This document shows positions 5,955 through 27,504 of a DNA stretch of 64,000 bases, in pieces. Each line of letters starts with the position of its first letter. Positions within the stretch are counted from its first letter, which is position 1. The stretch is taken from contig JAUYMS010000019.1 in the NCBI GenBank assembly GCA_030698625.1, positions 1 through 64,000 of the forward strand. The letters are read 5' to 3'. This DNA is from Candidatus Omnitrophota bacterium (lineage in GTDB: Bacteria > Omnitrophota > Omnitrophia > Omnitrophales > Aquincolibacteriaceae). The position numbers and the translations under genes are program-made. Under the pieces are notes generated by a model. It was not told where the DNA came from and did no database searches. It saw only the letters and a list, made by a program, of their open reading frames with translations.

Positions 5955-5960
5955 CCCCGC

Positions 5961-6914: not shown

Positions 6915-7178
6915 TTACTGCTTACTGATTTTTACGAGAAACTTTTCTACGCGGGTTTTCTTCCGGTCGGCGCGGCCCTTCGGAATGATCCCTCGAGACA
7001 CCGCCTTATCATAACGCGATATGACACGACGCGCGAAGTCTTTAGCCTTTTTGGGATCGCTCTCGAGTTCACCCAACTGCTGGCTCAGGGTCTTCAGCTG
7101 AGAGAGGGCAGCCTGATTGACGGCCCTCTTCTTGGCATCGCTTCTCATGCGTTTCATAGCAGATTTAATATTAGGCAT
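6915..7178 (-). CDS. rpsT: 30S ribosomal protein S20
   Basis: 87 residues beginning MPNIKSAMKRMRSDAKKRA, the standard basic S20 N-terminus, and ending in a Lys/Arg-rich helix. S20 binds 16S rRNA early in 30S assembly. It is transcribed opposite to its neighbours from its own promoter, whose -10 box ends only 6 bases before the ATG; no Shine-Dalgarno sequence fits in that space, so the mRNA is probably leaderless. It converges directly on holA. Confidence 0.97.
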   Translation of the reverse strand: MPNIKSAMKRMRSDAKKRAVNQAALSQLKTLSQQLGELESDPKKAKDFARRVISRYDKAVSRGIIPKGRADRKKTRVEKFLVKISKQ

Positions 7179-7184
7179 CCAGGG

Positions 7185-7213
7185 AATTTATCATAGCCAA
7201 GACTGCTTGTCAA
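7185..7213 (-). promoter_or_regulatory. rpsT promoter, predicted leaderless start
   Basis: Read on the minus strand: TTGACA (7213-7208), 17-base spacer ending in TGA, TAAATT (7190-7185), then 6 bases and the ATG. A transcription start 7 bases after the -10 box would coincide with the A of the start codon. Confidence 0.7.
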
Positions 7214-7239
7214 TCAGCATCAAATAGGAGCTAAAAACC

Positions 7240-8829: not shown

Positions 8830-8836
8830 AGAACTC

Positions 8837-10471: not shown

Positions 10472-10588
10472 ATGGAAAAAATTAGCACCTTCAATTTCAT
10501 ACCGTTTAAGCGAAGCATCGCTGCTTTCGTGGCGCTCGCTTTATGTCTGACTCAGGTCTTTATCCCGTCGCCTGAGGCCATGGCTGCC
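10472..10588 (+). other. Signal peptide or anchor of the giant protein
   Basis: Residues 1-39: a polar N-terminus with FKR, a hydrophobic core AAFVALALCLTQVFI, then SPEAMAAE with an AMA-type cleavage site. It predicts Sec export of at least the first region, which conflicts with cytoplasmic-type domains later unless membrane spans bring them back. Confidence 0.7.
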
Positions 10589-13500
10589 GAGACCGTCGCC
10601 GACCGTATGGAGGTTGCGGCAATCTCTGCGGATAAAATTTCAGTTCCTCAGGAATTGGGTTATGTGACGGATCACTATACCGGCTCCCGAGAGAAGCTTG
10701 TTGTCTTCATGCAGGATGCTCACGCCAACGGCTCAGCTCAGGTATCGATCGCCGGTTTGATTTCGCACTTCCGTGAAACCTATGGCATTCAGACCGTGGC
10801 TCTCGAGGGCGTCGAGGGAGAACTCGACAGCACGCTCTTTCGCGCTTATCCAAATCGCCAAGCGTTGGAATCCGTGTTTAACGGGTACATGCAAGCAGGG
10901 GAACTATCGGGCGCTGCGGTTGCGAGTGTCCTCCAAAAAGACAGCGGGTCCTATATCGGTATCGAGGATTGGAAGCTGTATGAAGCGGGCGTCCGCTCCT
11001 ACTTGGAGGCGCAACGTTTGAGAGGCCCCTATGAGCACGAAGCAACGCTCCTGCGCGAAGGGCTCGAAGGGCTCAAGGCTCAAAAATTTTCACATGACGC
11101 TTTGCAGCTTGCCGGTCAATTGCGTCGTGCGGAGGGTCATCCCGGAGAACTCCTGAGTGTGATCAAGTTTCTTGCCGAGCGGCAGAGACCCGATCCTGAG
11201 ACATACCCCATCCTTTCAGCGCTTTATGCCAAGATTACGGCCGAAGAAATTCACGACGATTATTCTCTCGACCGCGAAATCCAGGAACTGGCCGCTCGCT
11301 TGAAGACGCATGTCCGCGCGGTGAAGGACGTTCGCATGTTTCACGGCAAGCTTCAAGCCTGGAAAACGGGAAGGCTGGATCGCGGCGGCTTTGCTCATTA
11401 CCTGAGCTCGATCTTGGAAGCGGCCGAAGTTCCCGATCTTTCCGCAAAACTGCAAAGGCTTATCGACGATCAGGATGTGCTCGACTCCACAAAGGGGCAG
11501 GGCTTCGCCGCGGAGTATGACGCCTTTGCGGATGCGGTGAAGGCCGCCGTTTACACGTCTGCGGTAGAGCAAGACCTCGACCGCATCGAGACGCGAATTC
11601 ATGCCGTCGAAAAACTGGGCTCCCTGGAGATCGCGCGTGCAGGCTGGGAGAACCTCGGAGTTCATGAGGTTCAGCCCGTGAAACTTCTGACTGAAGATGA
11701 CGACCTCCTGTCGTTTAGCGCAGGCGTTGACGCTTTTGTGACTCGACTGGCGGCAGACTTTCAGCCTTTTGTGCAGTTCTACGATATTGCCGTAGCGCGT
11801 GAGAAGGTTTTTAGTGACGAGCTCACGAGCCTGTTAAGCCGCGGGGATGAAGATAAGGTTCTTTTTCTCGGCGGAGGGTTTCATGCCGAAGGCATGATGG
11901 AGACACTTCGCGAACGCGGCATCTCGTATGTTCTCATTGCCCCAAAAATCTCCGAGGTACCCGAAGACTCGAGATATCAGAATCATATGCGGGGCCGCGT
12001 TTCGTGGTCGGAGTATTTCGAAGTGACTCACGGACGGGTGAATTTGTTTAACGCGTTCAGCCGCGCGGCAGTCGACCGTCTCTTAGGCGAGGATCCCTCA
12101 CGCGAGACTTTAAAGCACTGGAGAGACGGGATTATCCGGGCATTGACGCGAGAAAGTCGAGTCGGCCAGGCCTCGCGTTATACGCGTTTTCTTGATGAAG
12201 CCGTTTTGAGGCAGGCCAATCCCCAGGCGCTCGGAGAATTATCGGACAAGTGGCATGCCGAACTGGAAACGTTTATTCAAAAACTGCAGGTACTCGAGAG
12301 GCAAAACCAGATCACCGAGGCGAAGGTAGCGGAACTCTTAAATCATCCTACCAGCGTTGCCCCGGGGGCGAATGCGTCCCTGCGACCCGATGCGAGCCTC
12401 TTTCCGTTTCACACGGTGGTATCCGAAGCGGCTATTGCGACACAGCCGCAACAGGCTGCGCCTGTCATAGCCGATGCAGCAGCCGGTCGTTCGGAACTGC
12501 GTGCCGTATTTGGGAAACAAGAGCAAGATTGGAGTCTTATCGATACCCAAGTGACCTTGGCTGAAATCCTGGGACGAAATGCGGGTGTTGACCAGCTTAT
12601 TATCGTGGCAAATAACAGCGGTACGCTGGTGGAAGCGCGGGAGATCCCCATGGATAACGCTACCCTCGCCCGACTCTCTTACTTGCTGGGAGAAGAGGGT
12701 GTTCACTTGGTGGTAAACACCGGCGACCCCTATAAAGATCTTTCAGGTATTACGCATGCCGATTTGATTGCAAAGCTGAAAGCACCGGATAAAGCCGAAC
12801 AGCGCAAGCGGTACCATGTTATTGCACAAGGCGGAGCCATCGCCGCCGAGTTCGATGATAGCGGCGAATTGAAAACGAGGCAACGCGTCGAAGATTGGTC
12901 CCTGGAAGAACGCATCAGTTATGTCCGCGCACTGATTAACGTTTTCTACGAAGAGATCAAGAAGCGGCACTCCATCTGGAACGAGCTCCTGAGCGACATT
13001 GAAGATGCGCAAGTTGAAGCAGCCAGACGCGACACCCTAGCGAGGCTAGATGCGCACGAAAGGGAGGGGACCTGGAATCTTGCTCCCGAAGATACTGAAT
13101 TTCGTTTTAGCCTCGTCCCTGATTTTCTCCGGGACGCCATCGGATTGTCGCCTCTTGAGGTTCCTTTTATTCACGAAGAGGGCACTATGGTCAATGTGGA
13201 TCTCGACAGCCACTCCACTCTGCGCTCCAATGAATTTTTCCGGGATTTGGCTAAGGCCGCCCATGAGACGATCAGTAAGGCCACCGCAGTTTACACATCT
13301 TTCGGAGACCGTTGGATTAATCTCAGCCGCACAAATAAACTAAATGGGGTCAAAGAGACGATCGAAAATCAGGTGTTCCCGCAGTTGGACCGTAACAAGA
13401 AAACACTCGTTGTTGTCTTGGGCGATGCCGGCAACGACATTCCAACGCTCAGTCTGGATTTCCCGAATCATCCGAATGTGAAAGTCTTACCCATTTTTCT

Positions 13501-16500
13501 GAATCCTGATCCGGTCTTTGCGCCGCTCCTGCCCGATCATTCCTATGTCACCAAGCAGCCACGCTTAGAGGGCGCAGCTCCTGTTTTTCAGTACCTGGCT
13601 ACTTTACCAGGCAGCCCGGTACGCTTGGCGCCTGTTCTGTCTCTTGCTCGCTGGAAGGACGCTCGGCCCGGGCTGACTCGCCGCCAACGAGTCACAAGAA
13701 CCCTCTTGGCGGCATCCCTGATCGCTGTTCCCGCCGCCGCATTTATTATAGCCGCGTCATTGGCCGAAGCGATCACGATGCAAGTGCTTGGGCAGGCGCT
13801 CAATCTCGGCATTAAAGTGGGGTTTGCGTATGCAGTGATACTGGGAATAGTGGTTCTGGCTCGCGAGATGAGGATCCGCACGCCGGAGCCGGTGCGGAGG
13901 AATTACGGATTTTCTCTGAATCAGACGGATGCCGGCAAAGGACTGGAAAACATCATCAGGGAAACTCTCGGTCATGTCGATCTGACCCTGCCTGAAATCG
14001 TAAGGATCAAACTCGACCGCGACATCGTTTATGATCGCGATAGAGACAACGGCCTTACCTTGGCGGCGGTGTCGACGATCCGAGAAAGATCGAATGAACT
14101 GCAGAACTATCCCGAGAGCGGTCAGCGGCTCACGGTTACGTATGAGGAATCCCCGGATGTTGTCATTGAACGTGAAACGGTTTCGAGGACAGTGCCGTTG
14201 ACCATCGTGATCGGCAGTTGGAATGAACGGCTTATGGACATGCTGAGGAAGCGTTCCCGTATTTATCAACTGCGCGATCCAGAAAACAGCACTGCCGTTG
14301 AGTTGACAGTACAGCGCTTTGCCAATGAAAGCGGCCGAGTGGTGCTGGCCTATGACGAGGCTTATGCCGATAGCCCGGCCATCGCATTTTTAGAGAATTC
14401 CTTCCTGGCTTCGGCAAAGCAGGTCGGCCGGCTGGAGTATCCCGGCCACGAACTGCGTTTGCGCGAGTGGCGCACATCCGTAGGCCATCAGATTGACCGT
14501 AAACTCCGGCAGGCCTATCCCCAGGGCGAACTTGACATGTTGCGCTCCGAGTTGCGATTGGCAAAAGAGGTTATTTACCCCGGCATTAGAGCAGGGTTTC
14601 ACATAGCCCTTGACCAGGACGACGTATCGGGACGGGTGATCCGTGATCTTCAGGGAGCGGCACTCAGAAACGAAATCGTAGAGGCCGAGACGTTTATGTC
14701 GTCGGAAACCAAGTCGTTGCTCGGAAGCGTCAGGCTTCGATTAATCGAGCCCAGCATGCCCGCCGAGAGGGGCTTTGTGTATTTCCGCAATCGCGGAAGT
14801 TATCAAGTCACCTATACGCCGGAGGCTGAAAATGACATCTATATTCCCGTTGCCTTGTGGAATTGGGCGTTGGCCAATCCGCATGCGTTGGCCGCTCTGC
14901 TGCAGCGGAATATTTATTACTCGACGGCAGACGCTGTATCTGAAAAAGTCGCAGCAGCGGCAGAGCGTGAAGCCGATCCGGACGGTCAGCTTCGCAAAAT
15001 GATTGACCGCTTGATCAGGCATGCCGAACGGGAAGTTTACAAGTCGGAAAAGGTCTGGAAAGGTGTCCCGAATTTTTTTCGAGGTCCGGTTGCATTTGCG
15101 CTCAAGATTGTTCTGCCTGTCGTGAAAGCGATGGATTTTATAGCCTGGGCGGCCCTGAGCATCTTTCTTGTGCCCGGCGCCGGAATTGTCAACCTCCTAC
15201 TTTATGGTGTGGCCTTATTGGCGCACTTGGTGACGGGCGAGACGATTATTGCAAGACAGGTTCGTGCGCCGAGCCGTTCGGGGCTTGATCTGCAGCAGTG
15301 GTTGAGAATCCATCTTGGGTTTGGAGCAGAAACTCGCACAGAAAACGTCCGAGCGGTCCTACGTGACCGCGATCGCGGCCGCTACCCCATTTTAATAAAA
15401 GCACTTCTCGACGAAGAGGCCGTCGTACGCCGAGCGGCAGCCGAGGCGGTCGGTGAACTGAATTTGGCGGGTGCGCGCTTCATATTACGGCGCGTGGCGG
15501 CCAACGACAGGCATCCGCTTGTACGCAGCACAGCTGCCGAAGCGCTGGTTAAGTTAAAAACGGCTTCTAGGCCAAAGCCGGTAAATTTAAACCGGCCGGC
15601 GGCGAGGTCCGAGCTTCGCAACGTGCCGAGTCAGGTGCGGGGTTGGTTTCGCGCTAATCTCGATGAATTAAGAAACGCTTATGAGGAACATAAAGTGCTC
15701 GGCATTGTAGAGCTTCTCGGCCGTGAGATCGAGCGTGCGAGAACAATCAGCGTGACCCTGTTTACGTTGGTGATTCTACCGGTAACACTTGCAAGCTTCT
15801 TCGCTTTGGGAGTTCCTCTTTCATTTCTTTTTGGGCATGAAGTTGCACACGCGGTAGTTCATGGTTTTTTTATCACCGTTTTCATTCAGGCGTGGGCCTA
15901 TATTCTGCGAGCAATCGGCAAGATCAAGGAGCGGAGTTACGACCTGCGCACCGCTGAGGGCAGGCAAAACAGTGCCAAACTGGCGGGAAATTTGCTCCTG
16001 GCCGGCGTGGCCGTTACCGGTGTACTGCTATCCGGTCTCCCGATTCATATACGCCTGATCTTGAAAAGCGCACTGCATGTTTTTCTGGCAACCCTGCACA
16101 CCTTCGGTCTCGCTCCTGATACCTCGCTCACAAGTTCCGACGCAAGGCGCCTTGCAGCCAAAGAGGGCGCAAGTATCAGCATGGTGTTCAGTGCGGGCCT
16201 TATCGACCTGAGTTTTATCTTTCTGGCCGGCTTCGGCTGGGGCTTCGTGAACTTTTACGAAATCTTGAAGCACAATTATGCCAGCCGTCCCGATCGCGCG
16301 GCGAAATCTCGATTGGAGGCTTTGCTGTGGCGGACCGAAGACATCTCGATGAATGCCATGGAGTCGGTCATTGATTTTGTGGGCAATGTCGTTGCACGGT
16401 CTCTTACCTGGGTTGCCAACAGGGCCACGAGCTCTGTCGGGCTAATCACGATAAGCGCTTTTGCTTTCACACTTCTCACTTATGGTTTTACGGCCGCCTT

Positions 16501-19500
16501 GATTGCGGCTGTTGTCGTTGCTTTGGGCACGAGCGCTTTGGTGTTCGCCACTCTTAGGCAGTTCGGCCGCATTAACCCTATGTTGCGAATCCTCGGCCAT
16601 CAATACGCCTACAATTCGATTTTGCCGCCGGTTGCCTATGGCTTACTCCGGCTGCCCATACTGGTCCGTGACGGGATTAACCGCCTGGTCGGTTTTTCGC
16701 TAGCTGCCATAACGGGAGGGTATCGCCGTTTTCAGGATGCCCGCTCTGTGTTCCGCAGGCGTTTCAGGGCAGCGAAACAGATAACGGCTTTCTACGCTCT
16801 GAGCATTATCCTGGAAGCCGGTGTCCGTGAATTCAGGAAGCCAAATCCGGACACCATCGTGATCGCAAAAAAGTTTCTTCAAGGTGAGACCGAGGCAGTA
16901 TATCGCCAGCGTTCCGAACTGCGTACGGATCAGGATGCCGTTGATCCTATGGATGTTGGTTTCGAGCCGCCTGCGGGCGAAATTGAAACACTTGAGCTGA
17001 CGCGTAGTGCCGTCATTGCCATGGTTCCGCAACTCGTCCTGGCTTTTGAAGCCATGAAGGCCAGGGGACTTGAGATCCGGGCTTTTGGTGGAGCGGTGCG
17101 CGGACTTGCCTTTGCGACGCAGTTTGACTACCCGTTGCCTATATCCGAACTCGATATTGGTGTGCCCGTACAAGCTATCATGGGTGACCAGTTTGACGAC
17201 ATGATGGCTGCCGAACGTGACTATGAAGAGTTAGTGTCTCGACGTGAGCGCAAAATGGGGCATCCGATCGAGCATTTGCAATTCCACGAGACGCCTGAAT
17301 TCAACATGGGGTTTGTTTTGCGCGAGAGCCTGGAATGGTCCATTTCGAAGTTCTGGCTGGAGTATGAATCCGATCGAAAGCGCTACCTTCTCAAAGGGAA
17401 ACAGGACTGGGTTGACGATTTGAGGAATAAGCGCCTGCGTCTTGTCGGGAACCAGTTTCTCGAATTCGATCGCTTACCGAAACTCTTGGATCAGGCACTG
17501 CAATACCTACGGCTGGGTTTTGTCATCGATGAGGAAAGCCTAAAAGCCATTGAGCAAGCGGCTGCGGATTCCAAGGAAGTACGGTATGAGGCGATACGGA
17601 AAGAGATCACAGAAAAGCTCGCGGATGTCCGTTTACGAATGGAGAGTGTCACCGCTGACGCAGAACCGTCCCAAGTCTTATCGGAATTTTATCCAAAAGC
17701 GAACGTCGTTCGCGATTGGGCCTTTTCCGGCCCGAGTGAGGATGACCGCCGCCGGCTTGTCGAGTTGCGCCGCGAATATCTCACGACGCGCTATGGATCG
17801 GAGGGGGCTCTTGATCGCTATAAGAACGGCGGTTCTCGATACGAGGGATTTTATCACCGGGGCAACGAATGGTTGTTAAAGGCCCCCAAAAAGGGTGCGT
17901 TACTTCCGAGTATGGTTGGAGACATCGCTCTGGGTGCCGAAATCGGCGGGGGCATTTTTGCACCTTACTTTACAGTTAGTCATGATGTCCTTACGCACCA
18001 CGGTTTAGATGTTACGCCCGAGGGAGAGATTGATGGGTCGCGTGAATGGATGGTTCAGAAAGTCGCCTTTTCTCTGAAGGCCCTTTTCTACTACCTGAAG
18101 GAGCAATGGAATGGGTCGGCCGACGAGGAACGCCGGGCGCAGATTGCAGCCGACGTTCAGCTGCTTTTTCAGGAGTGGCGCCGTTTGGTCTACCGCGGCT
18201 GGGCCCTGGGCATTCTGCTTTCGGACCCGACGATCGCGAACGCGGGCCTCACCGCAGAAGGGGATGTGCTTCACATCGGCGTGTCGTTTGATCAGACTTG
18301 GATGCGCTTTTTTAAAGGCTCCACGAGCGCTGCGGACCTGGCCAATAATGCCAACCGTAATTGGCTGACTCAGCTGTTTGGCTCGGAATTGGCCCGGGAG
18401 TGGTACGGCCCCGGACTTGACGGCTTCTTTTTTGACGTGCTCTGGCCGAGTGAGGGCGGAGGAACTGCCAGCCGCGCCGTCGCCGAAGATAATCGCGCAC
18501 CGGTTTTCGGCCCGGGCGAAGAAGAGGAGGTCCGTGCTGCCTTTCTCGCCTCAGTGAAGGACCGCTCCGAACTGCGGAGCGATAACAGGACTGAAACCAT
18601 TTACGACCGCCTGGAGAGGAAGGAACAACAGGCTCGTGAAATCTTGAGGGCTCAATATCCCGGGGACCTCGTTCTCGAAGATTTTTTTAGAAACTTCTTT
18701 GCGGGTTTCAGTGTGGGGCATTTGCTATCCAATACCGTAACTGCCGAGCGGCTTGCACATGAGATCTCACTGCTTTACGAGATGTTCATCGAATACATAG
18801 CCGGTGATGCACCCGAATATTTCATGAGCGTTAAAGCCTTTAATCCGGACGAGATCCATGAACTGCCTGGAGACGCCGATTTCACGACCATTCTCGTCAT
18901 GGCCCAAAACCGAAAACATCTTCACTCGGATGTCGAAGAAGCCGTCGAGGATTTCGGAGTACGTGTCATCGAGCGGCATCAGTACACTATTTTTAATCCC
19001 AACACACAGGCCGAGGTCAGTGTATTTGCCATCGAAGTCGAACATAAAGAGCGCAAGGGGAAACTGAGCTCTACAGAAAGAGACTCTGTGCGTACAGCGA
19101 TTGAGGGGGTTCTACTCAACACCATGAAGCATGGGCACGAAGAGGTTCGCCTAGCGGGTTCCTCGAAACTCAAGCATGCCATTAAGCAGGCGACGGCAGC
19201 GCCGCTCAGAACGCCCACCGATAAGATCGAGGATGTCGCACTGGATATCTATGCCGAATTGCGCGGTACCGACGATATCAATAACCCGGAAAAGGTGCTC
19301 GAAATTCTAAATCGTGACCTCAAAAGATTTAACGAAGCAATCAAAAACATCCTGCGTAAACTGGAGTTTTTGCCGAAGACGCTCGGTGTCGAACCTGAGC
19401 AGGTGAAACCCATCCGTGAGTATCTCGAAGCCTTGCAGACTGAGACGTTGCAGCTTGCCCTGATTCCCCGCATCAGCGTGAAGCAGCACCGGCAGGATGC

Positions 19501-22500
19501 ACTCAGTATCTTCCTCCACATCGTACAGAAAGAGGTCGATGAAGCGATGACTTCCGACGACAGTATCTCAAGGCGCGGCCTAACGCTCGCGCAGGTACGG
19601 TTCGTCGAGGCGGCGGTCTATGACGAGATGCAGAAAAGTTTCAGCTACTTGGACATGACCCGCCATCACAGCGAGGAAGCGCAGTTAAGGGAAGCCGAAG
19701 CGCAGGTGCGGCGCTTTAAAGAGGCCTTGGCCCGTGCGCTCAGTGGCGATAGGGGAGAGTCCATCGAAGCGTCCCTGGAGAATCTGGAGGCTATCCTCGA
19801 TGGCAGCGGACTGGATGACGAAATCAGCGGGATTGCCGGTGTTAAAGGGGCGATCGCCGATGTGGCGAGGGACGTTATACGCCGCATAGGGATTAACGAA
19901 GGAGGCGGAATGTCGGCCGCGCCTATTGTTGAGTGGAACGAAGGGCAGGAACCGGGACAAGCCCTTCAACAGATCAACCCTAAGGCCGAATACGCAATTA
20001 TCCAGGCCGTGATCCCGTATGTCGAGGCAGCTGAACGGAATTTATCCGAGGCGAAGGGCGGCATGGCAAAAAAGGCCGCCCGCGAAGATCGCGCCCGCGC
20101 TCACGAACTGCGAACAATATTTGACGATGCTGCGGCGATGCTTGTCGCCTCAAACGGCTATGATGCGATTGATTCCCTGGGCACCATCAATGAGAAACAG
20201 CCCGTTGTGTTGTTCGCCCACGGTAATCTCAACCCCTTTAAACTGAAGCGGCTTTTCCTGCGTTATAATATTGTCGCGATCGTCGCTAACAAGGGAACGG
20301 TAGGGTCGCATTGGGTCTTCGTAGCCGAGCAGCGGGCCAAAGCGGTACCTGTCCTCTTTTTGGATAGCGGCGAGACCGATGTCACCGGCGATACGATTTT
20401 CGGTCACGAAGTCATTGTCGACGGAGGCGGTACTCTGATCCTCGATCCTTCGGAGGACACTAAAGAAGAATACAAACCCAAGATCGAAAAAGTGGAAAAC
20501 TATGCAGTTGTAGCACGCGCGCTGGCCCAACGACGGACGGGCATCTCGGTCGCCGCAAATGCCGATACTCCCGAAGAAGTCGAAAACGCTGTCGAGAACG
20601 GCGCAGAGCATATCGGATTGGTCCGGACGGAGTATCTCTTTGGTATGGATAACCGCCCCCTCCGTGAGTTCCTTCGGGCTTATGTAGCAGGCAGTGAAGA
20701 TCTTGAAGCTAAACGGCAAGCGCTTGTCGACGAGTTCGAAGGCACTTTTCGCGAATTGGCACTCAGCGCTCAGGGCCGTGAAGTGACGATTCGTATGTAC
20801 GACTTCGCCAATCCCGATACGGACAGCAAAACGGCGGAATTAGTCCTCAATCAATACAACCCGGATAAAAAATACGGCCCCGCCTACTATAAAACCCCAA
20901 TCGGCCGGGCCCTGCTCGAAATCGAGAACGAAGCCGCGCTGCGCGCCAATGCCCGTTTGGATAAGCCTACGATCAAAGTGCTGTTCCCGCTCTTTCGACA
21001 CCCCGTAGACCTCGCACGGTATCTCGAGATAGAAGACAAATATGTTGCGGATGGGGGCCTTAGAGACCTGTCGATGATGCAGATTTATAAGCTGTCAAAG
21101 CTTTATCGTGCGGATGCTGAATTCATGGATAGGGTCTTCAACGATGTGAAGAAGCGTCTTCTTGAGCCGGAAGGCGGCAAGCCCGCCCCAATTGCCGATG
21201 CCGCTAAGCAGACGAAGGTGAAAGGGACAAAGGAAGGTATTATGCTGGAAATGATCGAGGGTATCTCATTGCTCAATATATTGGTGGACCTCTTTGATTT
21301 TATCAGTATCGGTACCAATGATTTAACGGTCAGTCTCTTCCGGTCGTACGGGATCACGCGTGACGGCAATCGTTATCTGAGCCAGATAGTCAGCACTCAT
21401 CTGAATCCCGTGGTCCTGCGCGCCATTGCCTATATTGCCGGCCAGGCAAAGAGCGCCGGCGTCTCCTGTAGTGTCTGCGGTACCTTGGGCGGTTTTGAAC
21501 AGTTTCTTCCCTTCGCGATCGGGCTCGATAATCTGGCACTCAGTGTGTCGTTGGGGCTGATCCCCGAGTTAAAGCACGAAATTAGGGGCCTCGAAAAGGC
21601 CGACGCCGAAATCTTCCGGGAGCTTTACCCGGACGGCGAGAAATATGACCATTCCTCTTTCAATGATGAACTCGAGAAAGCGGCAGTGAAACTCGCCGAA
21701 GCTATTCTCGCGGGTAACGAAGACTTCGCTATGGATAAAGCAGCCGCGGAAGTGATCGAACGGGTGCGCCAGGCGCAGCAGGAGAGCACCGAATTCCATG
21801 AGACGCTCACGGCGGTTTTGGACGGTAACTTTGAAGATACCGCGGAAAGTGAGGACGAATACACTGTAGAAATGGACCGGAGATCGACAGCCGGACAAAC
21901 CGGGGAACACGTGACGCGTACTCTCGATGTCATGGTGGGTCTCACAGGCGTGCATTTCCTGCCCGTGCAAGCATTTAGGCCGTTCATTAAAGAGGGCATG
22001 ACGGCGGTCTTGAATCGGCGTTCCTTTCGCGGCATAGGCGAAGCGACCTTCGATCTTAAAACGGTGAAAGCACTGGATGTTCTAAGCAACCGAACGCCCG
22101 GTTATCACATTATGGAACTTGCGGTTACGGGAGACTCAGGTGATGTGGATGAATTTGTCAATGCCGTGTTGAGATGGAGGGATCACAGGGCAGACGGCGA
22201 GTTGTTTCTTGCCGCGGAATTCGTGCGAGGGGAATATACGCTGCGGGGTGAACTGCCGGCCGAGGCATTTGCTGCCGTTTTGGCGGACCAACCGGATTAT
22301 AAGGATTTTACGGCGAAGCTTGAGGTGCCGGAAGCAGATGGCGGTCAGTATCTTGAGCCGGTGGATCTCCGGGATGCGGCTAAGGTTGCGGGGTTGAACC
22401 TGCAACCCGGGACGCTATTAACGTTTTATCTCCGCGGCGAGAATGCCGAGAGCGTTCTCGGTAAACTGGAGGCCGCCGCAGGCGACAGCCTTGAACCCGT

Positions 22501-25500
22501 GGAAGAAGCCCGGGTCGTGGGGGCTCCGCGGGAAGAGACCGCTCGGGCCTTCGACTTTCATGGTGCGTTAGAACCCCGTGATGAAGGCAAGGTGCGGATG
22601 GTGGGTTCTTATACCATCGGAGATTCCGGTATTCCTCTTGAGGCCGCGACGGCCATAGCCGTGAAGCGAGTGGATTATGAACATATTGAAACGGTCACCC
22701 TGAGTTTCGGAGAAGGAGATCAGGCCATAACCCTCTCTGTCGACGACCCCTTTCTCTTGTTTTCTGCGGAGATATCACCCGGGACGGTTGTGACGCTTGA
22801 AGCGGAAGGAAGCCGGGAAGAGGTTGTGTCTTTGATTCAAGCCCTTGAGGCGATTACGGGCGCCGCGGCGAATTCCGAAACTGCCCCGATTTTTAACCGG
22901 GTCGAGGCACCTGCCGCTGAACAGGCAAGAACAGCGGTCGAGTTTTTCGGCACAGCCGAGGATTTAGATGAAGGTGTGATTCGCGTGGTGCAGCCCTACC
23001 GCGCCGGGCCGGATGGGATACCGCCGGACATTGCCAATAGAATCGTCCAAGCGCGGGGTGAATACGGCAAGATTACGACAGCGAATATCCATGTAGGCGA
23101 GGGCGATCAGGCCTTTGCCGTAAACATGAGTGAGTCCTTCATGTTGGTGGGCGCCGAAATTGCTCCGGGTGCCAAAGTGGAGCTTGAATTAGTCGGGCCC
23201 CGCGACGATGTGAGTAAATTATTTCAATATCTTGAAACCTTTTTCACGCCGCAGCGGTCCGAGTTGAGGACGGACGAGGAAACCTACGATAGTCTGGAGA
23301 CCCTAGTGCAGCGTGCCGAGCGCGGCGAATTTCACGAACTTTTTGCGCAGATTACCTTGGACCTTCCCTTCATCGATAATCCGAAGGAAGAAGCGGCAAA
23401 GAAACAATTGGCGGCACTTCGAGTCTTGATCAAGGCCGCAGATATCGAGCTTCCTGAGGCTGTTTACCTCGCCTTTACATTGGAGCCGTCTGATTTCGAA
23501 TTCCCTTCGTGGGCTGACAGCCTTTATCGGTATGGCCGTTCAGAAGTCAATCAGAGCCTGACGTATCGCACGCGAAATTTTGCCGCAACGTACGATCGAT
23601 GGCTCAAGGCCTGGTTTGAAGATCCGGGAAATCCGAGACATGCCCGGGGCCGCGGTTCGCTCAAGGCTGAATACGATAGTCTGAAAGCACTCGGGCCGAA
23701 GCGGTTTCGCGAAGTCCTTGAGGGCCGTGACGGCGGTTGGGAGTTTGACATACGCGAAGAATTTTTAACCCAAAAGGGTTTTGATGAGACTACGGCAAAC
23801 TATATTGCGAGTCTCGACGAACCAGAGCAACCGGCTGACGAAGCCGCCGGTGAGGCCGAGCGCTCGGAGCTCAAGCCGCGCGGCGCTATCATAGCCGATG
23901 TGCAGATGGGATTGCAGTACGGAATCGATCGGAACGACATCCTTGAAGGTATTCGGACGGGATTCAATGAGGATCTCGCAGTGCTGAAACGCAGACCGCC
24001 TGCCGAATTTCATGGGGCCTACGCTATCTTGTTAGAAGAGACGATACGGGCAATCTATTTCGCTTATGAATTTGATCCGGAGGAAATTGCGGTGATTGCC
24101 TTGGGCAGTCTTTCGCGCATGGCGACGCCTTTTGGTACCGATATTGACCTCTTGATTCTGCTCAGTGAGGAAGCGGCCGGGGATGCGGCGAACCGACGTC
24201 AGCTAACCGGCAAGCTGCGCGAGTTCGTCGAAGATGTGGACGCCATCGTACCGTTCGGCGCTGATTTTCCGGCAAAAATCAAGACGGCGGAGGGCCCGAT
24301 CGATATTCCCACCGTGGCGGAACTCAAGGCGCATATTGATCAATTTGAGGGGGTCGGAATTTCGAGTCTGTTGGACAACCGATATCTTTCAGGTAATCAA
24401 GCGATATACGACCAATTTAGGTATGACGTAGGTCCCGCCGCGGCGTGGCAGCAGGAGGTGTGGTTCGCGTTGGATATTGAGACTCCGGGAAATGAAAGCG
24501 GCGCGAACGTACCGGCGCCCATGCGTTTGTTTCGAACCGTCGGAAAGTTGCTCGAGCGTCTGAATGAACTTCCGGATAAAGAGCTTACGTTTGTGGGCGG
24601 CAAGGTAGACGACATTTTCAATGAGTTTGGAGTGCAGGCACCCCACGACCGCTCGCATATCATTGACACGGTTCTTAATGAGCGCGACCGGATCGGTTTC
24701 GGTCAAGAAGGGGAATACGCCATTTTGAACCTTATCAATCACTATCTCCTTGACGGGCTCGATCGGAGGGTGAAGGTCGTTCCCTTCGTTTTGGAAGACT
24801 ACAAGATCAAAAACGGGCCCTCCGGCCTCAAAGTTTTGAGTTTGCTCGGCTATATAGGAAGAACCGTGAAGGGGCTCGACACATGGGAGTGGCATTCCGA
24901 AACGGAGGGCCAGCGGGTTTTCGGCGACTTGGTTCGCATACTCCGTGAGAAGGGCTTCGACTGGTTCGAAGTAGAGGCCGACCGGGAAAGCCGTGAGGAG
25001 AGTGCGCTCTATGCCAGCCGGTATTTCGGGCGAGAGCTGACAGAGGACGAGGATCTTACGGTTGTCGAGACACAACAGTTTCTGTTGCGGCTGAGGACAG
25101 CATCCAATTTGGCCTGGGAAGAAAAACTCGGCGCTGAGATGGCGACGGCACGCGAAAGCAGTAATCCGGTTCTTCAAGAAGAAGTCAAGCGGCACAAAGA
25201 TCATTATATGCACGGGCAAATCGGTGAGCGAGTTGCTGAGCTCTTGGGTTTTCCGGATAAAGAGACGGTTCGGGACAGGATCGTGAGAAGTCATTTCTTT
25301 GTGCAGGCGCTTGCGACTCGTATCATCGACCGAGTCGGTGACGACCGGTCAGAGTTGAGGCAAGTCGAACCCGAAAACCTTGCGGAGGCTTATGAGAGTG
25401 TCCTCCTGGCGGTCATCGCGGCGCAGCGCGCGACTCCGGAAGCCGTTAGTTCACTCGTGACTGCGATTCGTGCGAAGGGAATCACCGGCGAGGAGGACTC

Positions 25501-26335
25501 GGGCGGTGTTGCTCAGGAACTTTTCGACGTCCTCACGACACGGCTTGCCGCACTTGCGGCCGCTTTAGAGCCGACCGCTTTTAAGGATGCCGCAGTGCGT
25601 CCCGGCGTCTATGAGCGCAGTCTGACTTTTCAGCTTGAGCATCCCGAATATGTGCTTCGTCACGCTCAATTCCTATATGAAAGCCCGGTATTGCTCGAGA
25701 GTCTGATTCATGCTTATTTGCAGGTTAATTCGCAGCTCAATTTCTCGTTTGTGATTCCGGTGCCCGAAAACCGGGAGGTTCAGCGCTGGCTTGTCCTTTT
25801 CCTCGCCAAACTGAATGATGTCATCAACTCCGGCCGGTATCGATCGGGTCAGATTCAAGCCCATATCGGGCTTCTCGGTTCCGGAGGGCAGTTTGAATCC
25901 GTCCGGCCGTTTCTCGGCCAACTCAAGGCACTTCAGTTGGAAAAGCTGATCGATGTCAGCGAAATCCGCTCGGATACCGCCGAGACGACGCGTGCGCTGA
26001 ACAAGTTTATCGGGCCGCAGGGGAATACCCTGCTGTTTACATCGGACGCCGCTCACTACGATTCCCTCACACGGCAGGTGAACCGGGAGCAGCAGTACCG
26101 GGTGATACAACTCGAAGACCTCCTCTTTTCCGAGGCCTTTCCGATAGCGACACTACTCATCTTTGAGGTCGCGGGTATTAATGAACTGACCAAAGAGCTG
26201 CTCGAAGGCCTTCCGAATCAACTGCCCGTCCAGGACAAGGTGGGCATCCGCAACGGCCACCTCGTCATCTTTGAATCGGCCCGCGAGCTCGTACTCGAAG
26301 CCACCGCCGCCGAACTCATCGCCGCCATGGCGTAA
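10472..26335 (+). CDS. Giant multidomain protein, 5287 aa (PTS Enzyme I/HPr-like, two nucleotidyltransferases, membrane regions)
   Basis: One uninterrupted frame of 15,864 bases with ATG at 10472 preceded by GGGAG. Residues 1-39 form a Sec-type signal or anchor ending AMA-A. Recognisable regions in order: TraB/Tiki-like (70-495), HAD-like (700-1050), hydrophobic segment (1075-1135), uncharacterised (1140-1535), hydrophobic segment (1540-1590), HEAT repeats (1610-1700), multi-span membrane region with HEVAH (1755-2080), poly(A)-polymerase-type nucleotidyltransferase (2165-2390), uncharacterised (2400-2690), ACT-like plus helical region (2750-3200), Enzyme I-like (3240-3720), HPr-like repeats (3815-4255), GlnD-like (4470-4960), unknown C-terminus (4965-5287). 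Eight RSEL(R/K) motifs punctuate it. Codon use resembles the neighbours and there are no internal stops, so it is maintained by selection. It appears to be transcribed alone. The overall function is unknown; PTS- and GlnD-like parts suggest phosphotransfer or nucleotidyl signalling, but a catalytic role is unproven. Cellular topology is unclear. Confidence 0.85.
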   Translation: MEKISTFNFIPFKRSIAAFVALALCLTQVFIPSPEAMAAETVADRMEVAAISADKISVPQELGYVTDHYTGSREKLVVFMQDAHANGSAQVSIAGLISHFRETYGIQTVALEGVEGELDSTLFRAYPNRQALESVFNGYMQAGELSGAAVASVLQKDSGSYIGIEDWKLYEAGVRSYLEAQRLRGPYEHEATLLREGLEGLKAQKFSHDALQLAGQLRRAEGHPGELLSVIKFLAERQRPDPETYPILSALYAKITAEEIHDDYSLDREIQELAARLKTHVRAVKDVRMFHGKLQAWKTGRLDRGGFAHYLSSILEAAEVPDLSAKLQRLIDDQDVLDSTKGQGFAAEYDAFADAVKAAVYTSAVEQDLDRIETRIHAVEKLGSLEIARAGWENLGVHEVQPVKLLTEDDDLLSFSAGVDAFVTRLAADFQPFVQFYDIAVAREKVFSDELTSLLSRGDEDKVLFLGGGFHAEGMMETLRERGISYVLIAPKISEVPEDSRYQNHMRGRVSWSEYFEVTHGRVNLFNAFSRAAVDRLLGEDPSRETLKHWRDGIIRALTRESRVGQASRYTRFLDEAVLRQANPQALGELSDKWHAELETFIQKLQVLERQNQITEAKVAELLNHPTSVAPGANASLRPDASLFPFHTVVSEAAIATQPQQAAPVIADAAAGRSELRAVFGKQEQDWSLIDTQVTLAEILGRNAGVDQLIIVANNSGTLVEAREIPMDNATLARLSYLLGEEGVHLVVNTGDPYKDLSGITHADLIAKLKAPDKAEQRKRYHVIAQGGAIAAEFDDSGELKTRQRVEDWSLEERISYVRALINVFYEEIKKRHSIWNELLSDIEDAQVEAARRDTLARLDAHEREGTWNLAPEDTEFRFSLVPDFLRDAIGLSPLEVPFIHEEGTMVNVDLDSHSTLRSNEFFRDLAKAAHETISKATAVYTSFGDRWINLSRTNKLNGVKETIENQVFPQLDRNKKTLVVVLGDAGNDIPTLSLDFPNHPNVKVLPIFLNPDPVFAPLLPDHSYVTKQPRLEGAAPVFQYLATLPGSPVRLAPVLSLARWKDARPGLTRRQRVTRTLLAASLIAVPAAAFIIAASLAEAITMQVLGQALNLGIKVGFAYAVILGIVVLAREMRIRTPEPVRRNYGFSLNQTDAGKGLENIIRETLGHVDLTLPEIVRIKLDRDIVYDRDRDNGLTLAAVSTIRERSNELQNYPESGQRLTVTYEESPDVVIERETVSRTVPLTIVIGSWNERLMDMLRKRSRIYQLRDPENSTAVELTVQRFANESGRVVLAYDEAYADSPAIAFLENSFLASAKQVGRLEYPGHELRLREWRTSVGHQIDRKLRQAYPQGELDMLRSELRLAKEVIYPGIRAGFHIALDQDDVSGRVIRDLQGAALRNEIVEAETFMSSETKSLLGSVRLRLIEPSMPAERGFVYFRNRGSYQVTYTPEAENDIYIPVALWNWALANPHALAALLQRNIYYSTADAVSEKVAAAAEREADPDGQLRKMIDRLIRHAEREVYKSEKVWKGVPNFFRGPVAFALKIVLPVVKAMDFIAWAALSIFLVPGAGIVNLLLYGVALLAHLVTGETIIARQVRAPSRSGLDLQQWLRIHLGFGAETRTENVRAVLRDRDRGRYPILIKALLDEEAVVRRAAAEAVGELNLAGARFILRRVAANDRHPLVRSTAAEALVKLKTASRPKPVNLNRPAARSELRNVPSQVRGWFRANLDELRNAYEEHKVLGIVELLGREIERARTISVTLFTLVILPVTLASFFALGVPLSFLFGHEVAHAVVHGFFITVFIQAWAYILRAIGKIKERSYDLRTAEGRQNSAKLAGNLLLAGVAVTGVLLSGLPIHIRLILKSALHVFLATLHTFGLAPDTSLTSSDARRLAAKEGASISMVFSAGLIDLSFIFLAGFGWGFVNFYEILKHNYASRPDRAAKSRLEALLWRTEDISMNAMESVIDFVGNVVARSLTWVANRATSSVGLITISAFAFTLLTYGFTAALIAAVVVALGTSALVFATLRQFGRINPMLRILGHQYAYNSILPPVAYGLLRLPILVRDGINRLVGFSLAAITGGYRRFQDARSVFRRRFRAAKQITAFYALSIILEAGVREFRKPNPDTIVIAKKFLQGETEAVYRQRSELRTDQDAVDPMDVGFEPPAGEIETLELTRSAVIAMVPQLVLAFEAMKARGLEIRAFGGAVRGLAFATQFDYPLPISELDIGVPVQAIMGDQFDDMMAAERDYEELVSRRERKMGHPIEHLQFHETPEFNMGFVLRESLEWSISKFWLEYESDRKRYLLKGKQDWVDDLRNKRLRLVGNQFLEFDRLPKLLDQALQYLRLGFVIDEESLKAIEQAAADSKEVRYEAIRKEITEKLADVRLRMESVTADAEPSQVLSEFYPKANVVRDWAFSGPSEDDRRRLVELRREYLTTRYGSEGALDRYKNGGSRYEGFYHRGNEWLLKAPKKGALLPSMVGDIALGAEIGGGIFAPYFTVSHDVLTHHGLDVTPEGEIDGSREWMVQKVAFSLKALFYYLKEQWNGSADEERRAQIAADVQLLFQEWRRLVYRGWALGILLSDPTIANAGLTAEGDVLHIGVSFDQTWMRFFKGSTSAADLANNANRNWLTQLFGSELAREWYGPGLDGFFFDVLWPSEGGGTASRAVAEDNRAPVFGPGEEEEVRAAFLASVKDRSELRSDNRTETIYDRLERKEQQAREILRAQYPGDLVLEDFFRNFFAGFSVGHLLSNTVTAERLAHEISLLYEMFIEYIAGDAPEYFMSVKAFNPDEIHELPGDADFTTILVMAQNRKHLHSDVEEAVEDFGVRVIERHQYTIFNPNTQAEVSVFAIEVEHKERKGKLSSTERDSVRTAIEGVLLNTMKHGHEEVRLAGSSKLKHAIKQATAAPLRTPTDKIEDVALDIYAELRGTDDINNPEKVLEILNRDLKRFNEAIKNILRKLEFLPKTLGVEPEQVKPIREYLEALQTETLQLALIPRISVKQHRQDALSIFLHIVQKEVDEAMTSDDSISRRGLTLAQVRFVEAAVYDEMQKSFSYLDMTRHHSEEAQLREAEAQVRRFKEALARALSGDRGESIEASLENLEAILDGSGLDDEISGIAGVKGAIADVARDVIRRIGINEGGGMSAAPIVEWNEGQEPGQALQQINPKAEYAIIQAVIPYVEAAERNLSEAKGGMAKKAAREDRARAHELRTIFDDAAAMLVASNGYDAIDSLGTINEKQPVVLFAHGNLNPFKLKRLFLRYNIVAIVANKGTVGSHWVFVAEQRAKAVPVLFLDSGETDVTGDTIFGHEVIVDGGGTLILDPSEDTKEEYKPKIEKVENYAVVARALAQRRTGISVAANADTPEEVENAVENGAEHIGLVRTEYLFGMDNRPLREFLRAYVAGSEDLEAKRQALVDEFEGTFRELALSAQGREVTIRMYDFANPDTDSKTAELVLNQYNPDKKYGPAYYKTPIGRALLEIENEAALRANARLDKPTIKVLFPLFRHPVDLARYLEIEDKYVADGGLRDLSMMQIYKLSKLYRADAEFMDRVFNDVKKRLLEPEGGKPAPIADAAKQTKVKGTKEGIMLEMIEGISLLNILVDLFDFISIGTNDLTVSLFRSYGITRDGNRYLSQIVSTHLNPVVLRAIAYIAGQAKSAGVSCSVCGTLGGFEQFLPFAIGLDNLALSVSLGLIPELKHEIRGLEKADAEIFRELYPDGEKYDHSSFNDELEKAAVKLAEAILAGNEDFAMDKAAAEVIERVRQAQQESTEFHETLTAVLDGNFEDTAESEDEYTVEMDRRSTAGQTGEHVTRTLDVMVGLTGVHFLPVQAFRPFIKEGMTAVLNRRSFRGIGEATFDLKTVKALDVLSNRTPGYHIMELAVTGDSGDVDEFVNAVLRWRDHRADGELFLAAEFVRGEYTLRGELPAEAFAAVLADQPDYKDFTAKLEVPEADGGQYLEPVDLRDAAKVAGLNLQPGTLLTFYLRGENAESVLGKLEAAAGDSLEPVEEARVVGAPREETARAFDFHGALEPRDEGKVRMVGSYTIGDSGIPLEAATAIAVKRVDYEHIETVTLSFGEGDQAITLSVDDPFLLFSAEISPGTVVTLEAEGSREEVVSLIQALEAITGAAANSETAPIFNRVEAPAAEQARTAVEFFGTAEDLDEGVIRVVQPYRAGPDGIPPDIANRIVQARGEYGKITTANIHVGEGDQAFAVNMSESFMLVGAEIAPGAKVELELVGPRDDVSKLFQYLETFFTPQRSELRTDEETYDSLETLVQRAERGEFHELFAQITLDLPFIDNPKEEAAKKQLAALRVLIKAADIELPEAVYLAFTLEPSDFEFPSWADSLYRYGRSEVNQSLTYRTRNFAATYDRWLKAWFEDPGNPRHARGRGSLKAEYDSLKALGPKRFREVLEGRDGGWEFDIREEFLTQKGFDETTANYIASLDEPEQPADEAAGEAERSELKPRGAIIADVQMGLQYGIDRNDILEGIRTGFNEDLAVLKRRPPAEFHGAYAILLEETIRAIYFAYEFDPEEIAVIALGSLSRMATPFGTDIDLLILLSEEAAGDAANRRQLTGKLREFVEDVDAIVPFGADFPAKIKTAEGPIDIPTVAELKAHIDQFEGVGISSLLDNRYLSGNQAIYDQFRYDVGPAAAWQQEVWFALDIETPGNESGANVPAPMRLFRTVGKLLERLNELPDKELTFVGGKVDDIFNEFGVQAPHDRSHIIDTVLNERDRIGFGQEGEYAILNLINHYLLDGLDRRVKVVPFVLEDYKIKNGPSGLKVLSLLGYIGRTVKGLDTWEWHSETEGQRVFGDLVRILREKGFDWFEVEADRESREESALYASRYFGRELTEDEDLTVVETQQFLLRLRTASNLAWEEKLGAEMATARESSNPVLQEEVKRHKDHYMHGQIGERVAELLGFPDKETVRDRIVRSHFFVQALATRIIDRVGDDRSELRQVEPENLAEAYESVLLAVIAAQRATPEAVSSLVTAIRAKGITGEEDSGGVAQELFDVLTTRLAALAAALEPTAFKDAAVRPGVYERSLTFQLEHPEYVLRHAQFLYESPVLLESLIHAYLQVNSQLNFSFVIPVPENREVQRWLVLFLAKLNDVINSGRYRSGQIQAHIGLLGSGGQFESVRPFLGQLKALQLEKLIDVSEIRSDTAETTRALNKFIGPQGNTLLFTSDAAHYDSLTRQVNREQQYRVIQLEDLLFSEAFPIATLLIFEVAGINELTKELLEGLPNQLPVQDKVGIRNGHLVIFESARELVLEATAAELIAAMA
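10679..11956 (+). other. TraB/ChaN/Tiki-like region of the giant protein
   Basis: Residues about 70-495. It opens with VVFMQDAHANGSAQVSIAGLI and VALEGVEGELD, and closes with VLFLGGGFHAEGMMETL. The His-containing opening, EG motif and GGxH near the end are the layout of the Tiki/TraB/ChaN superfamily. Members bind haem or act as metal-dependent proteases; no activity can be assigned here. Confidence 0.5.
12569..13621 (+). other. HAD-like phosphatase region with altered motif I
   Basis: Residues about 700-1050. Motif IV is clear (GDAGNDIPTL, residue 984 onward) and the tail resembles Cof-type HAD phosphatases. Motif I, normally DxDGT, reads ANNSGTLVE near residues 712-719, so the nucleophilic and acid/base Asp residues are replaced. 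Probably non-catalytic or a binding domain. Confidence 0.55.
15299..15571 (+). other. HEAT-repeat region of the giant protein
   Basis: Residues about 1610-1700: two to three HEAT/PBS-type repeats such as LIKALLDEEAVVRRAAAEAVGEL followed by LRRVAANDRHPLVRSTAAEALVKL. They follow a hydrophobic segment (1540-1590) and end at an RSELR motif (1712). Likely a protein-interaction surface. Confidence 0.7.
15734..16711 (+). other. Multi-span membrane region with an HEVAH motif
   Basis: Residues about 1755-2080 contain at least six hydrophobic stretches. The first is followed by FLFGHEVAHAVVHG, with HExxH at residues 1789-1793 in a hydrophobic setting, as in site-2-type (M50) intramembrane proteases. 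The second M50 motif (NxxPxxxLDG) is not seen, so protease function is only a possibility. Confidence 0.5.
16964..17641 (+). other. Poly(A) polymerase / CCA-transferase-type nucleotidyltransferase region
   Basis: Residues about 2165-2390. AFGGAVRGLAF (G2206) matches the GGxVRD head motif and ISELDIGV (D2228) the DxD strand. DWVDDLRNKRLRLVGNQFLEFDRLPKLLDQALQYLRLGFVI follows the head-domain/neck layout of CCA-adding enzymes. In GGxVRD the Asp is Gly, and DxD is ELD, so catalysis is uncertain. Confidence 0.6.
20189..21631 (+). other. PTS Enzyme I-like catalytic region of the giant protein
   Basis: Residues about 3240-3720. A phosphohistidine-type loop GTVGSHWVF places His at 3280. The TIM-barrel part has VAANADTPEEV, GAEHIGLVRTEYLFGM, VTIRMYDFANPDTDSK, GIMLEMIEGI, FISIGTNDLT and SVCGTLGG with Cys at 3669. 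These correspond in order to Enzyme I's RTEFLF, RTLDIGGDK, GIMxE, FFSIGTNDL and CGExAGD motifs, so the PEP/Mg-binding residues and active Cys are mostly kept, with local changes. A helical stretch upstream (IADVARDVIRRI) resembles the HPr-binding domain. Confidence 0.7.
21914..23236 (+). other. Tandem HPr-like repeats of the giant protein
   Basis: Residues about 3815-4255. The first unit, VGLTGVHFLPVQAF, keeps the HPr-type His (H3828) with Arg changed to Leu. Three further units of about 85-105 residues follow, the last two clearly related to each other (SFGEGDQAITLSV and HVGEGDQAFAVNM; AEISPGTVVTLEAEG and AEIAPGAKVELELVG). The later repeats lack the phospho-His. Placement directly after an Enzyme I-like region supports an HPr origin. 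Confidence 0.5.
23879..25351 (+). other. GlnD/DUF294-type nucleotidyltransferase region
   Basis: Residues about 4470-4960. ALGSLSRMATPFGTDIDLLILL (G4545, D4557, D4559) is the GSxxRxExxPxSDxDLL motif, with Glu replaced by Ala but both metal-binding Asp retained. Further on, QQFLLRLRTASNLAWEEKL and GQIGERVAELLGFPDKETVRDRIVRSHFFVQA mirror the helical linker of GlnD. No HD domain follows. Confidence 0.65.
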
Positions 26336-26395: not shown

Positions 26396-27500
26396 ATGGA
26401 AGAAATCATCCGCGAACTAACCGAAAAAGTTGACTATCTCAAAGAGAAGCTCCAAGAGATAAGGGGGTATCTTTGACGTCGACTCACGAGACAAAGAAAT
26501 AACTGCCCTCACCGAAAAGATGTCCCAGCCCAATTTCTGGGACCGACCCCAAGAAGCCCAGTCCGTCGTTGAAAAACTGAAGATCCTAAAAAAGGTCGTC
26601 GACCCGTGGAAAAAGGGCCATCGGGACGTCGCCGATGTCGCCGAGCTTCTTGGCATGCTCGATGAAAATCAGGGGGAAGAAATAGCGGACATACGCGCAG
26701 AGATTGAGCGCCTGATCCGTGAGGTCGACAACCTGGAGTTTCAGCGGCTCCTGTCCGGACCGAACGACAGCCGGAGCGCGATCTTGAGCCTTAATGCAGG
26801 GGCGGGAGGCACGGAGTCGTGTGATTGGGCCGAGATGTTGCTCAGGATGTATCTTCGGTGGGCAGAGAAGCATGATTATAAAATGCAGATTGTCGATGTC
26901 CTCTCCGGCGAAGAAGCGGGAATCAAGAGCGCGACCGTTATGATTCAAGGACCCTATGCCTTTGGCTATCTAAAAGCGGAAGTCGGAGTTCACCGCTTGG
27001 TCCGCATTTCTCCTTTTGATTCGAATAAACGCCGCCATACCTCGTTTGCGTCTGTGGACGTGATCGCCGAAGTCGATGATGCCGTTGAAATTGAAGTGAA
27101 GGATGCGGATTTGCGCATCGATACCTACCGCGCCGGCGGTGCGGGAGGGCAGCACGTCAATAAAACCGAAAGTGCGGTCCGTATCACACATCTCCCCACG
27201 AAGGTTGTTGTGCAGTGTCAGAATGAACGGTCGCAGCATCAGAATAAGCAGGTTGCGATGAAACTCTTGAAGGCGCGCCTTTATGAGAGACGTATGAAGG
27301 AGAAAGATCAGGAGATGAAGAATCAGTACGGGGATAAAATGGAGATCGCGTGGGGTTCACAGATTCGCTCCTATGTTTTCCATCCGTATACGATGGTGAA
27401 GGATCATCGTACCGATGTCGAAACCTCCAACGGCCAGGCCGTCATGGACGGCGACCTCGATGAATTTATACAGGGGTATCTCAAAAAAACGGTAAAATAA
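26396..27500 (+). CDS. prfB: Peptide chain release factor 2, with programmed +1 frameshift
   Basis: Translation begins at ATG 26396 ([15 protein letters not shown]), meets an in-frame TGA at 26474-26476 after 26 codons, and resumes +1 as [12 protein letters not shown] to the stop at 27498-27500, giving about 367 residues, the RF2 norm. Diagnostic motifs: SPF codon-recognition tripeptide in [15 protein letters not shown], and GGQ in [19 protein letters not shown], which triggers peptidyl-tRNA hydrolysis. RF2 reads UAA and UGA, so the in-frame UGA makes its own level control translation. It heads a unit with secA 4 bases downstream. Conceptual translation needs a join: 26396-26473 and 26475-27500. 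Confidence 0.95.
26462..26477 (+). promoter_or_regulatory. prfB recoding signal (internal SD plus CTT-TGA-C)
   Basis: AGGGGG at 26462-26467, a three-base spacer TAT, then CTT TGA C at 26471-26477. This is the classical RF2 autoregulatory frameshift site; the internal Shine-Dalgarno element and slippery CTT are identical to the Escherichia coli arrangement. Confidence 0.95.
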
Positions 27501-27504
27501 ACCT

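Follow-up and report, generated by a model that had tools for sequence, protein, structure and literature searches.

Layout of P0001 and its sister giants

Approximately 40 giant proteins are encoded by the genome to which the window (the whole stretch of 64,000 nucleotides analysed here) belongs and, as these were examined stretch by stretch, one pentapeptide tag is found to separate unrelated enzyme modules in all of them. One such giant is P0001 (10472..26335, + strand; 5287 aa), which seven copies of RSELR and one of RSELK split into nine segments. On balance, we consider it probable that P0001 is a secreted multi-enzyme polyprotein precursor, whose R[SA]E-x-R sites a lineage-specific reader would cleave. 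The original prediction had described a single frame behind an N-terminal signal sequence and several membrane spans, and these features hold: the frame starts with ATG and is uninterrupted, MEKISTF..FVALALCLTQVFIPSPEAMA forms a signal-type N-terminus, and about ten further hydrophobic spans lie at aa 1077–2028. The residues and motifs that it cited are all found as stated, at H3280 (GSH), R3385 (RTEYLF), D3617 (IGTNDL), C3669 and H3828 (GVHFLP); what it overlooked are the eight RSEL[RK] pentapeptides and the some 40 sister proteins that this genome encodes.

All features of P0001 lie on the + strand. The signal-type N-terminus and a conserved N-module (aa 1–672; 10472..12487) are followed by tag 1 (RSELR, aa 673; 12488..12502) and by cassette 1 (aa 678–1357; 12503..14542), which is HAD-like (GDAGNDIPTL), contains two transmembrane spans, and is homologous to the first cassette in the C7:34923 giant (E 5e-60; 32% over 399 aa). 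Tag 2 (RSELR, aa 1358; 14543..14557) has atypical flanks and may be internal; cassette 2 beyond it (14558..15604) comprises two hydrophobic spans and HEAT repeats (Pfam HEAT_2, E 5.5e-8). Tag 3 (RSELR, aa 1712; 15605..15619) and tag 4 (RSELR, aa 2147; 16910..16924) enclose cassette 3 (15620..16909), a polytopic membrane cassette without a family match. Its HEVAH motif (FGHEVAHAVVHG; window 15830–15865, aa 1787–1798) resembles those of intramembrane metalloproteases, and a role as a processing enzyme is possible.

Of the CCA-transferase-like part in the original prediction a trace is left, in cassette 4 (16925..18562): the match to NCBIfam PcnB has an E-value of 0.047 and, in place of the GG-x-VRD and DxD motifs of CCA/poly(A) polymerases, the cassette has GGAVRG and ELD. 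At tag 5 (RSELR, aa 2698; 18563..18577) an alignment with a giant of a related genome (G005) starts, with the tag as its first residues in both proteins, the tag being RAELR in the latter; it is followed by cassette 5 (18578..23254), which contains the Enzyme I (EI)-like and HPr-like regions. Tag 6 (RSELR, aa 4262; 23255..23269) and tag 7 (RSELK, aa 4464; 23861..23875), the sole K variant in 66.8 kaa of giants, bound the short cassette 6 (23270..23860), to which no family is assigned. Cassette 7 (23876..25345), which has a homologue in the C38 giant, is a GlnD/DUF294-like nucleotidyltransferase. The motif GS..TDIDL is present at 4545–4560, with the predicted DxD intact as DID, but the family match is weak (NCBIfam, E 8e-4) and covers the nucleotidyltransferase stretch only, with no match to an HD or ACT domain in Pfam or NCBIfam, so that assignment to GlnD proper does not stand. 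Tag 8 (RSELR, aa 4959; 25346..25360) precedes the C-terminal cassette (25361..26335), which ends ..ELIAAMA-COOH and has homologous C-termini in a giant of another relative (G008; E 1e-7) and in the C38 giant.

The gene is set among housekeeping genes, with ComEC, BamD/TPR-like, holA, murJ and uvrC on one side (window 808–10285) and prfB, secA and lnt on the other (window 26520–31768). Further along (window 36047–43234), two adjoining beta-ketoacyl synthases, a male-sterility-type reductase and an MMPL transporter form a predicted lipid or aryl-polyene-like biosynthesis cluster.

Frequency, codon usage and flanks of the tag

In P0001 the exact RSELR pentapeptide is present seven times, where 0.016 would be expected, whilst every other pentapeptide of the protein occurs at most twice. 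A degenerate DNA pattern for RSELR is found 415 times genome-wide, in dense arrays on many contigs, compared with 124 for the reversed control; limiting the pattern to CGN/TCN codons gives 310 and 20, respectively. The P0001 and codon-limited counts led us to reject chance or composition as the source of the tag. Frames read from these arrays are 2,217 to 14,273 aa in length and carry 2–18 tags apiece, with a median spacing of 541 aa. The tag is confined to giants, with 216 copies in long frames (171,000 aa) and none in the short frames of the same contigs (36,985 aa). It is also close to invariant: 97 exact copies occur in 66,782 aa of the genome's own giants, where every one-mismatch neighbour is at chance level, and 214 copies occur in 168,072 aa, where any R-x-E-x-[RK] variant is found at most three times.

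All six synonymous codons are used for the leucine of the tag, and all six for its last arginine, so the peptide has remained fixed whilst its codons drifted, which indicates selection on the peptide; a DNA repeat or mobile element was rejected as the nature of the tag on the same ground. The serine is encoded by TCN in 96 of 98 copies, compared with a background of about 60%, implying that the tag copies share a common source. Tandem tags, RSELREAGTAMRSELR, are found twice in one giant (L018; C13:38330), around aa 2630 and 3323, possibly a micro-cassette that was duplicated together with its tag. Common ancestry of the tag copies, nested tandem tags and the shuffling of cassettes among giants would all be accommodated if the tag were a scar of the gene capture or recombination that added cassettes to giants, the peptide itself having no present function. 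We nonetheless regard this explanation as very improbable, as the amino acids of a DNA scar would drift, and an invariant peptide in the face of full Leu/Arg synonymous drift speaks for continuing selection on the protein.

The flanks of the tag are linker-like, with P/A at −2, Q/D/A at −1, S/T/A at +1 and D/E at +2 to +5. The preference at +1 to +4 ([STA][DE]x[ED]) equally fits a helix N-cap, which counts against a polyprotein. It can instead be taken, together with the transmembrane spans and the secretion signal, as consistent with giants that stay uncleaved and act singly as surface machines in predation or symbiosis, the tag then being no more than a structural linker or helix cap; the machine role is the view published for Omnitrophota giant ORFs (PMC10066038, PMC12419801). 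Structural linkers tolerate substitution, however, whereas the one-mismatch neighbours of the tag are at chance level, and switches of tag between genera (see below) would have no structural reason; we therefore consider the uncleaved machine unlikely. Of seven Tat-type motifs in the genome's own giants (168 kaa), four lie no more than 35 aa behind a tag, against 0.31 expected. In three giants (L005, L009 and L091; C2, C7:13373 and C21:84352) such motifs stand directly behind the tag, for example as RSELR-MDDDSRLTRRDFLKVV and RSELR-AMSRRGFLERVMKTA.

Tags mark cassette boundaries and differ between lineages

Between giants, 43 homologous blocks (50,606 aa, counting both sides) contain eight tags, each of them with its partner on the other side. 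Random placement would put 40.7 tags in these blocks and leave 26.6 of them unmatched (minimum 13 in 500 shuffles), against none observed. About 20 Pfam domains are found in seven giants, comprising HAD, PfkB, PP2C, Fic, His phosphatase, receiver, HD, UDPG dehydrogenase, PPDK, methyltransferase, TPR and HEAT families, and none of them spans a tag; in one giant the receiver and HD domains occupy separate, adjoining cassettes. As far as sequence can tell, the giants would qualify as polyproteins, in the sense of several autonomous proteins in one frame with a fixed separating recognition sequence. An assembly or stop-codon artefact was rejected as the source of the giants, since the same grammar is found across many contigs and some 30 genomes.

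Related genomes use variants of the tag, here given as genome-wide count/reversed control count. RSELR itself predominates in the window's genome (310/20), in which RSEMR and RAEVR occur only three times each, and in G011 (138/9), G022 (89/10) and G015 (85/10). RSEMR is used in G017 (171/1) and G004 (79/3), both of one genus, and in G006 (72/0), G012 (45/1) and G016 (41/0), whilst RAEVR is found in G024 (38/3), G019 (39/7) and G008 (27/3). Single giants carry these dialects in arrays, with 11 copies of RAEVR in one giant of G019 and nine of RSEMR in a giant of G012; one giant of G006 mixes five RSETR with five RSEMR. A trans-acting reader with a lineage-specific preference would be the simplest cause of such dialects.

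Relative to their length, some giants are poor in tags or lack them, which counts against the polyprotein reading. The C28 giant has four tags in 10,379 aa, and a giant of 35,113 aa in genome G060 (L135–L140; G060:C37:79001–187000), which carries the N-module, has about seven R[SA]E-x-R tags; nearly tag-free giants are also present in G007 and, in one case, in G010.

The EI–HPr cassette

The Enzyme I-like and HPr-like regions of P0001 lie together within one RSELR-bounded cassette (aa 2698–4261). The Enzyme I assignment of the original prediction is well supported, with matches to Pfam PEP-utilizers_C (E 1e-29) and NCBIfam PTS_I_fam (E 4e-28), and a BLAST match to the separate EI of the same genome (E 3e-11). 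Both an EI fold and conservation are found in the predicted region (3240–4255), the AlphaFold model matching EI/PPDK structures in Foldseek (E 1e-14), with one canonical EI included in the alignment from which it was built; the model is poor overall (pLDDT 57.8), with the barrel at 80–93. H3280, R3385, R3441, E3593, D3617, R3630 and C3669 are invariant when P0001 is compared with its three orthologous giants and with the canonical EI that the genome encodes, and represent the EI catalytic set, which we take to be H189/R296/R332/E431/D455/R465/C502 in E. coli numbering. The conservation of all seven residues suggests that the cassette is probably an active phosphotransferase. The domain scores 98.3 bits against TIGR01417, below the cut-off of 341.7. 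For the HPr-like repeats the case is moderate: H3828 is kept (GVHFLP), but the Arg is lost and the score of 22.5 bits (E 1.2e-4) lies just under the Pfam cut-off of 23. The orthologous giant of G008 has a near-canonical HPr site, GCHLRPA (TIGR01003, E 1.7e-4; 21.5 of 47.9 bits).

The cassette recurs in giants of three other genera (G005, G008 and G017) with E-values of 1e-67 to 1e-35, its internal order kept and its neighbouring cassettes different, so the pairing of EI with HPr is a conserved one. Beyond it, the match of these giants to P0001 is limited to the N-module and, for one of them, the C-terminal cassette. The proposed self-contained phosphotransfer/nucleotidylation machine does not survive this comparison: the GlnD-like, CCA-like, membrane and HEAT parts each belong to cassettes of their own, none of which accompanies the orthologous EI–HPr cassettes, and this argues against a conserved EI–HPr–GlnD machine. 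With some 40 giants sharing one grammar and differing in content, the set of domains in P0001 is one draw from a shuffled repertoire and not a pathway by design.

Since EI requires PEP, the EI–HPr cassette must reach a cytoplasm, be it in its own cell, prior to export, or in a partner cell. The number of spans upstream is even, hence an intact exported chain would place the cassette outside the cell. This would favour release of the cassette before export, or its delivery into another cell.

Terminal regions of the giants and the proposed reader

Complete giants open with a secretion-type signal and the conserved N-module of about 500–600 aa. A profile search of the window's genome with the N-module found about 43 frames totalling 244,976 aa (20.9% of bases), a sum in which some frames end at contig ends. 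Some N-modules (C41:91636–93371, C7:10906–12270 and similar) matched the profile as two separate parts or lie in short frames, and are possibly split or have a divergent helical insert. By profile search, the module is present in each of the 29 relatives, from the family and order, with which testing began and, more widely, in 85 of 145 Omnitrophota, among them every genome of the order (47 of 47). The longest frame that carries it is the one of 35,113 aa; a scan with a single N-module protein returned one Omnitrophota record, RA.bin19.

The AlphaFold model of the N-module (pLDDT 91.5, pTM 0.87) and the alignments place four residues that are invariant or nearly so (H, E, E and H) at the ends of successive strands, H84, E112 and H471 being among those that are invariant. 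Among Pfam families PF04187 (ChaN/Tiki) matches the largest number of N-modules, 7 out of 51, though at sub-threshold level (best E 0.0014). The Foldseek fold search gave no match with E ≤ 0.001, with EreC, 3b55, 2rad and HopBA1 among the weak matches, and no match to the PDB was found by sequence. We read the N-module as a putative, divergent ChaN/Tiki/EreA-like domain, and probably an enzyme. It resembles that superfamily in the H, E, E, H residues at strand ends and in its best Pfam family by member number; it differs in being sub-threshold in both sequence and fold search, and in having a large helical insert.

At the opposite terminus, 21 of the 22 giants scored end in [ASTM]A, compared with 1 of 83 other frames; for a terminal A alone the figures are 21/22 and 7/83 (p 4e-15). 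The C-terminal cassettes are not one family, as an iterative HMM joined only three members, which leaves the terminal [ASTM]A as the only general trait of this end.

In the mechanism that we propose, a Sec-type signal and ChaN/Tiki-like N-module would be followed by a series of cassettes with independent functions (for P0001, the EI–HPr, GlnD-like nucleotidyltransferase, HEAT, membrane and HAD modules), the last of which ends in ...[ASTM]A. A dedicated protease would read RSELR and cut, most likely after the last Arg (RSELR|[STA]; P1 Arg, small P1′), with a preference that varies by lineage (RSELR, RSEMR, RAEVR and others), thus releasing the cassettes as separate proteins. We infer the cut, its position, its agent and its timing. 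The leading candidate protease would be the N-module, acting in cis, since metalloproteases occur among Tiki and its related families; alternatively, a PDZ-type C-terminal protease recognising the ..AA tail may be the reader. A clostripain-type (C11) arginine protease was considered for this role and rejected, the C11 family being absent from 29 genomes.

Several lines of evidence count for a polyprotein: the excess of tags, their dialects, the lack of unmatched tags and of Pfam domains crossing a tag, the linker-like flanks, the Tat-type motifs behind tags, the N-module throughout the order and the [ASTM]A tail, as well as contents that are autonomous soluble enzymes (EI–HPr, UDPG dehydrogenase, PfkB, PP2C, Fic, receiver and HD). 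The missing significant fold match for the N-module counts against it, as does the near-invariance of five residues, which is stricter than for most protease sites. Such strictness suits binding, and each R[SA]E-x-R could be a ligand for docking or tethering, recognised by a cognate receptor on the surface or on a scaffold, so that intact giants are pinned at many points, as with dockerin or sorting repeats. A ligand of this kind, of which each giant would have 2–18, needs a sequence-specific, lineage-tuned reader just as much. No receptor is known, however; intracellular enzymes with intact EI chemistry would make little sense tethered outside the cell, and Tat-type motifs right behind tags suggest former or future N-termini. 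Docking therefore appears to us fairly unlikely, and processing of a polyprotein remains our preferred reading.

Relation to known systems

Giant ORFs of Omnitrophota were reportedly also the subject of a 2023 preprint by West-Roberts et al. Those in print have been termed poorly understood (Seymour et al. 2023, PMC10066038), and the lipocone paper (PMC12419801) mentions giants that are rich in enzymes. The giants described here resemble those of the former paper in phylum, in their very long frames, in their transmembrane spans and in having few annotated domains; they differ in the interpretation, since adhesin or predation roles were proposed there for single giants. Within the searchable text on Omnitrophota giant ORFs there is no mention of a punctuation peptide, of dialects, of a common N-module or of a cassette grammar. 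A literature search, with preprints and most subscription papers outside its reach, returned RSELR in unrelated contexts only and nothing for Omnitrophota and polyprotein. Within that range, the tag punctuation system appears to be new, whilst the giant ORFs themselves were already known; an earlier description may exist in literature beyond it.

Giant bacterial ORFs have been catalogued yet left unexplained, their modules taken as one machine, and a fixed, lineage-specific separator makes them parsable: cutting in silico at the tags yields cassettes of normal protein size, which can be annotated and assayed singly. If the tag is cut, bacteria would have a polyprotein strategy on a genome scale, together with a protease that is highly specific for a pentapeptide and comes in several natural dialects; if it is bound and not cut, they would have an equally specific docking system. 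Either way, the purpose of giant proteins becomes testable.

Cassette 5 shares with PTS Enzyme I, PtsP (EI-Ntr) and EI–HPr fusions the EI fold, the seven catalytic residues and an HPr-like domain downstream. It differs from them in lying far under the NCBIfam cut-offs, in lacking the GWRAIR loop, in having several degenerate HPr-like repeats and in being lodged in a proposed polyprotein.

MARTX toxins are single giant secreted chains with a variable array of enzyme modules, which are released by proteolysis. The giants would be analogous as giant secreted chains with variable enzyme modules, their release being putative; they differ in their exact pentapeptide tags and in numbering about 40 genes per genome, and no Pfam match to RTX/MARTX repeats or the cysteine protease domain was found in the giants scanned. 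Viral polyproteins yield many mature proteins from one frame by cleavage at a fixed, lineage-specific consensus. By analogy, and if cutting occurs as we infer, the giants have one frame, many parts and a fixed lineage-specific consensus, but here the genes are cellular, at about 40 loci, the cassettes are shuffled, and no structural or replicative virus proteins were seen. Extended to the whole order of Omnitrophota, the proposal, on which we are evenly divided, is that a large share of the proteome (about 21% of this genome) consists of secreted polyproteins, cut at a dialect-tuned R[SA]E-x-R by the ChaN/Tiki-like N-module or another protease and exchanging their cassettes freely, which would make them a cellular counterpart of viral polyprotein processing.
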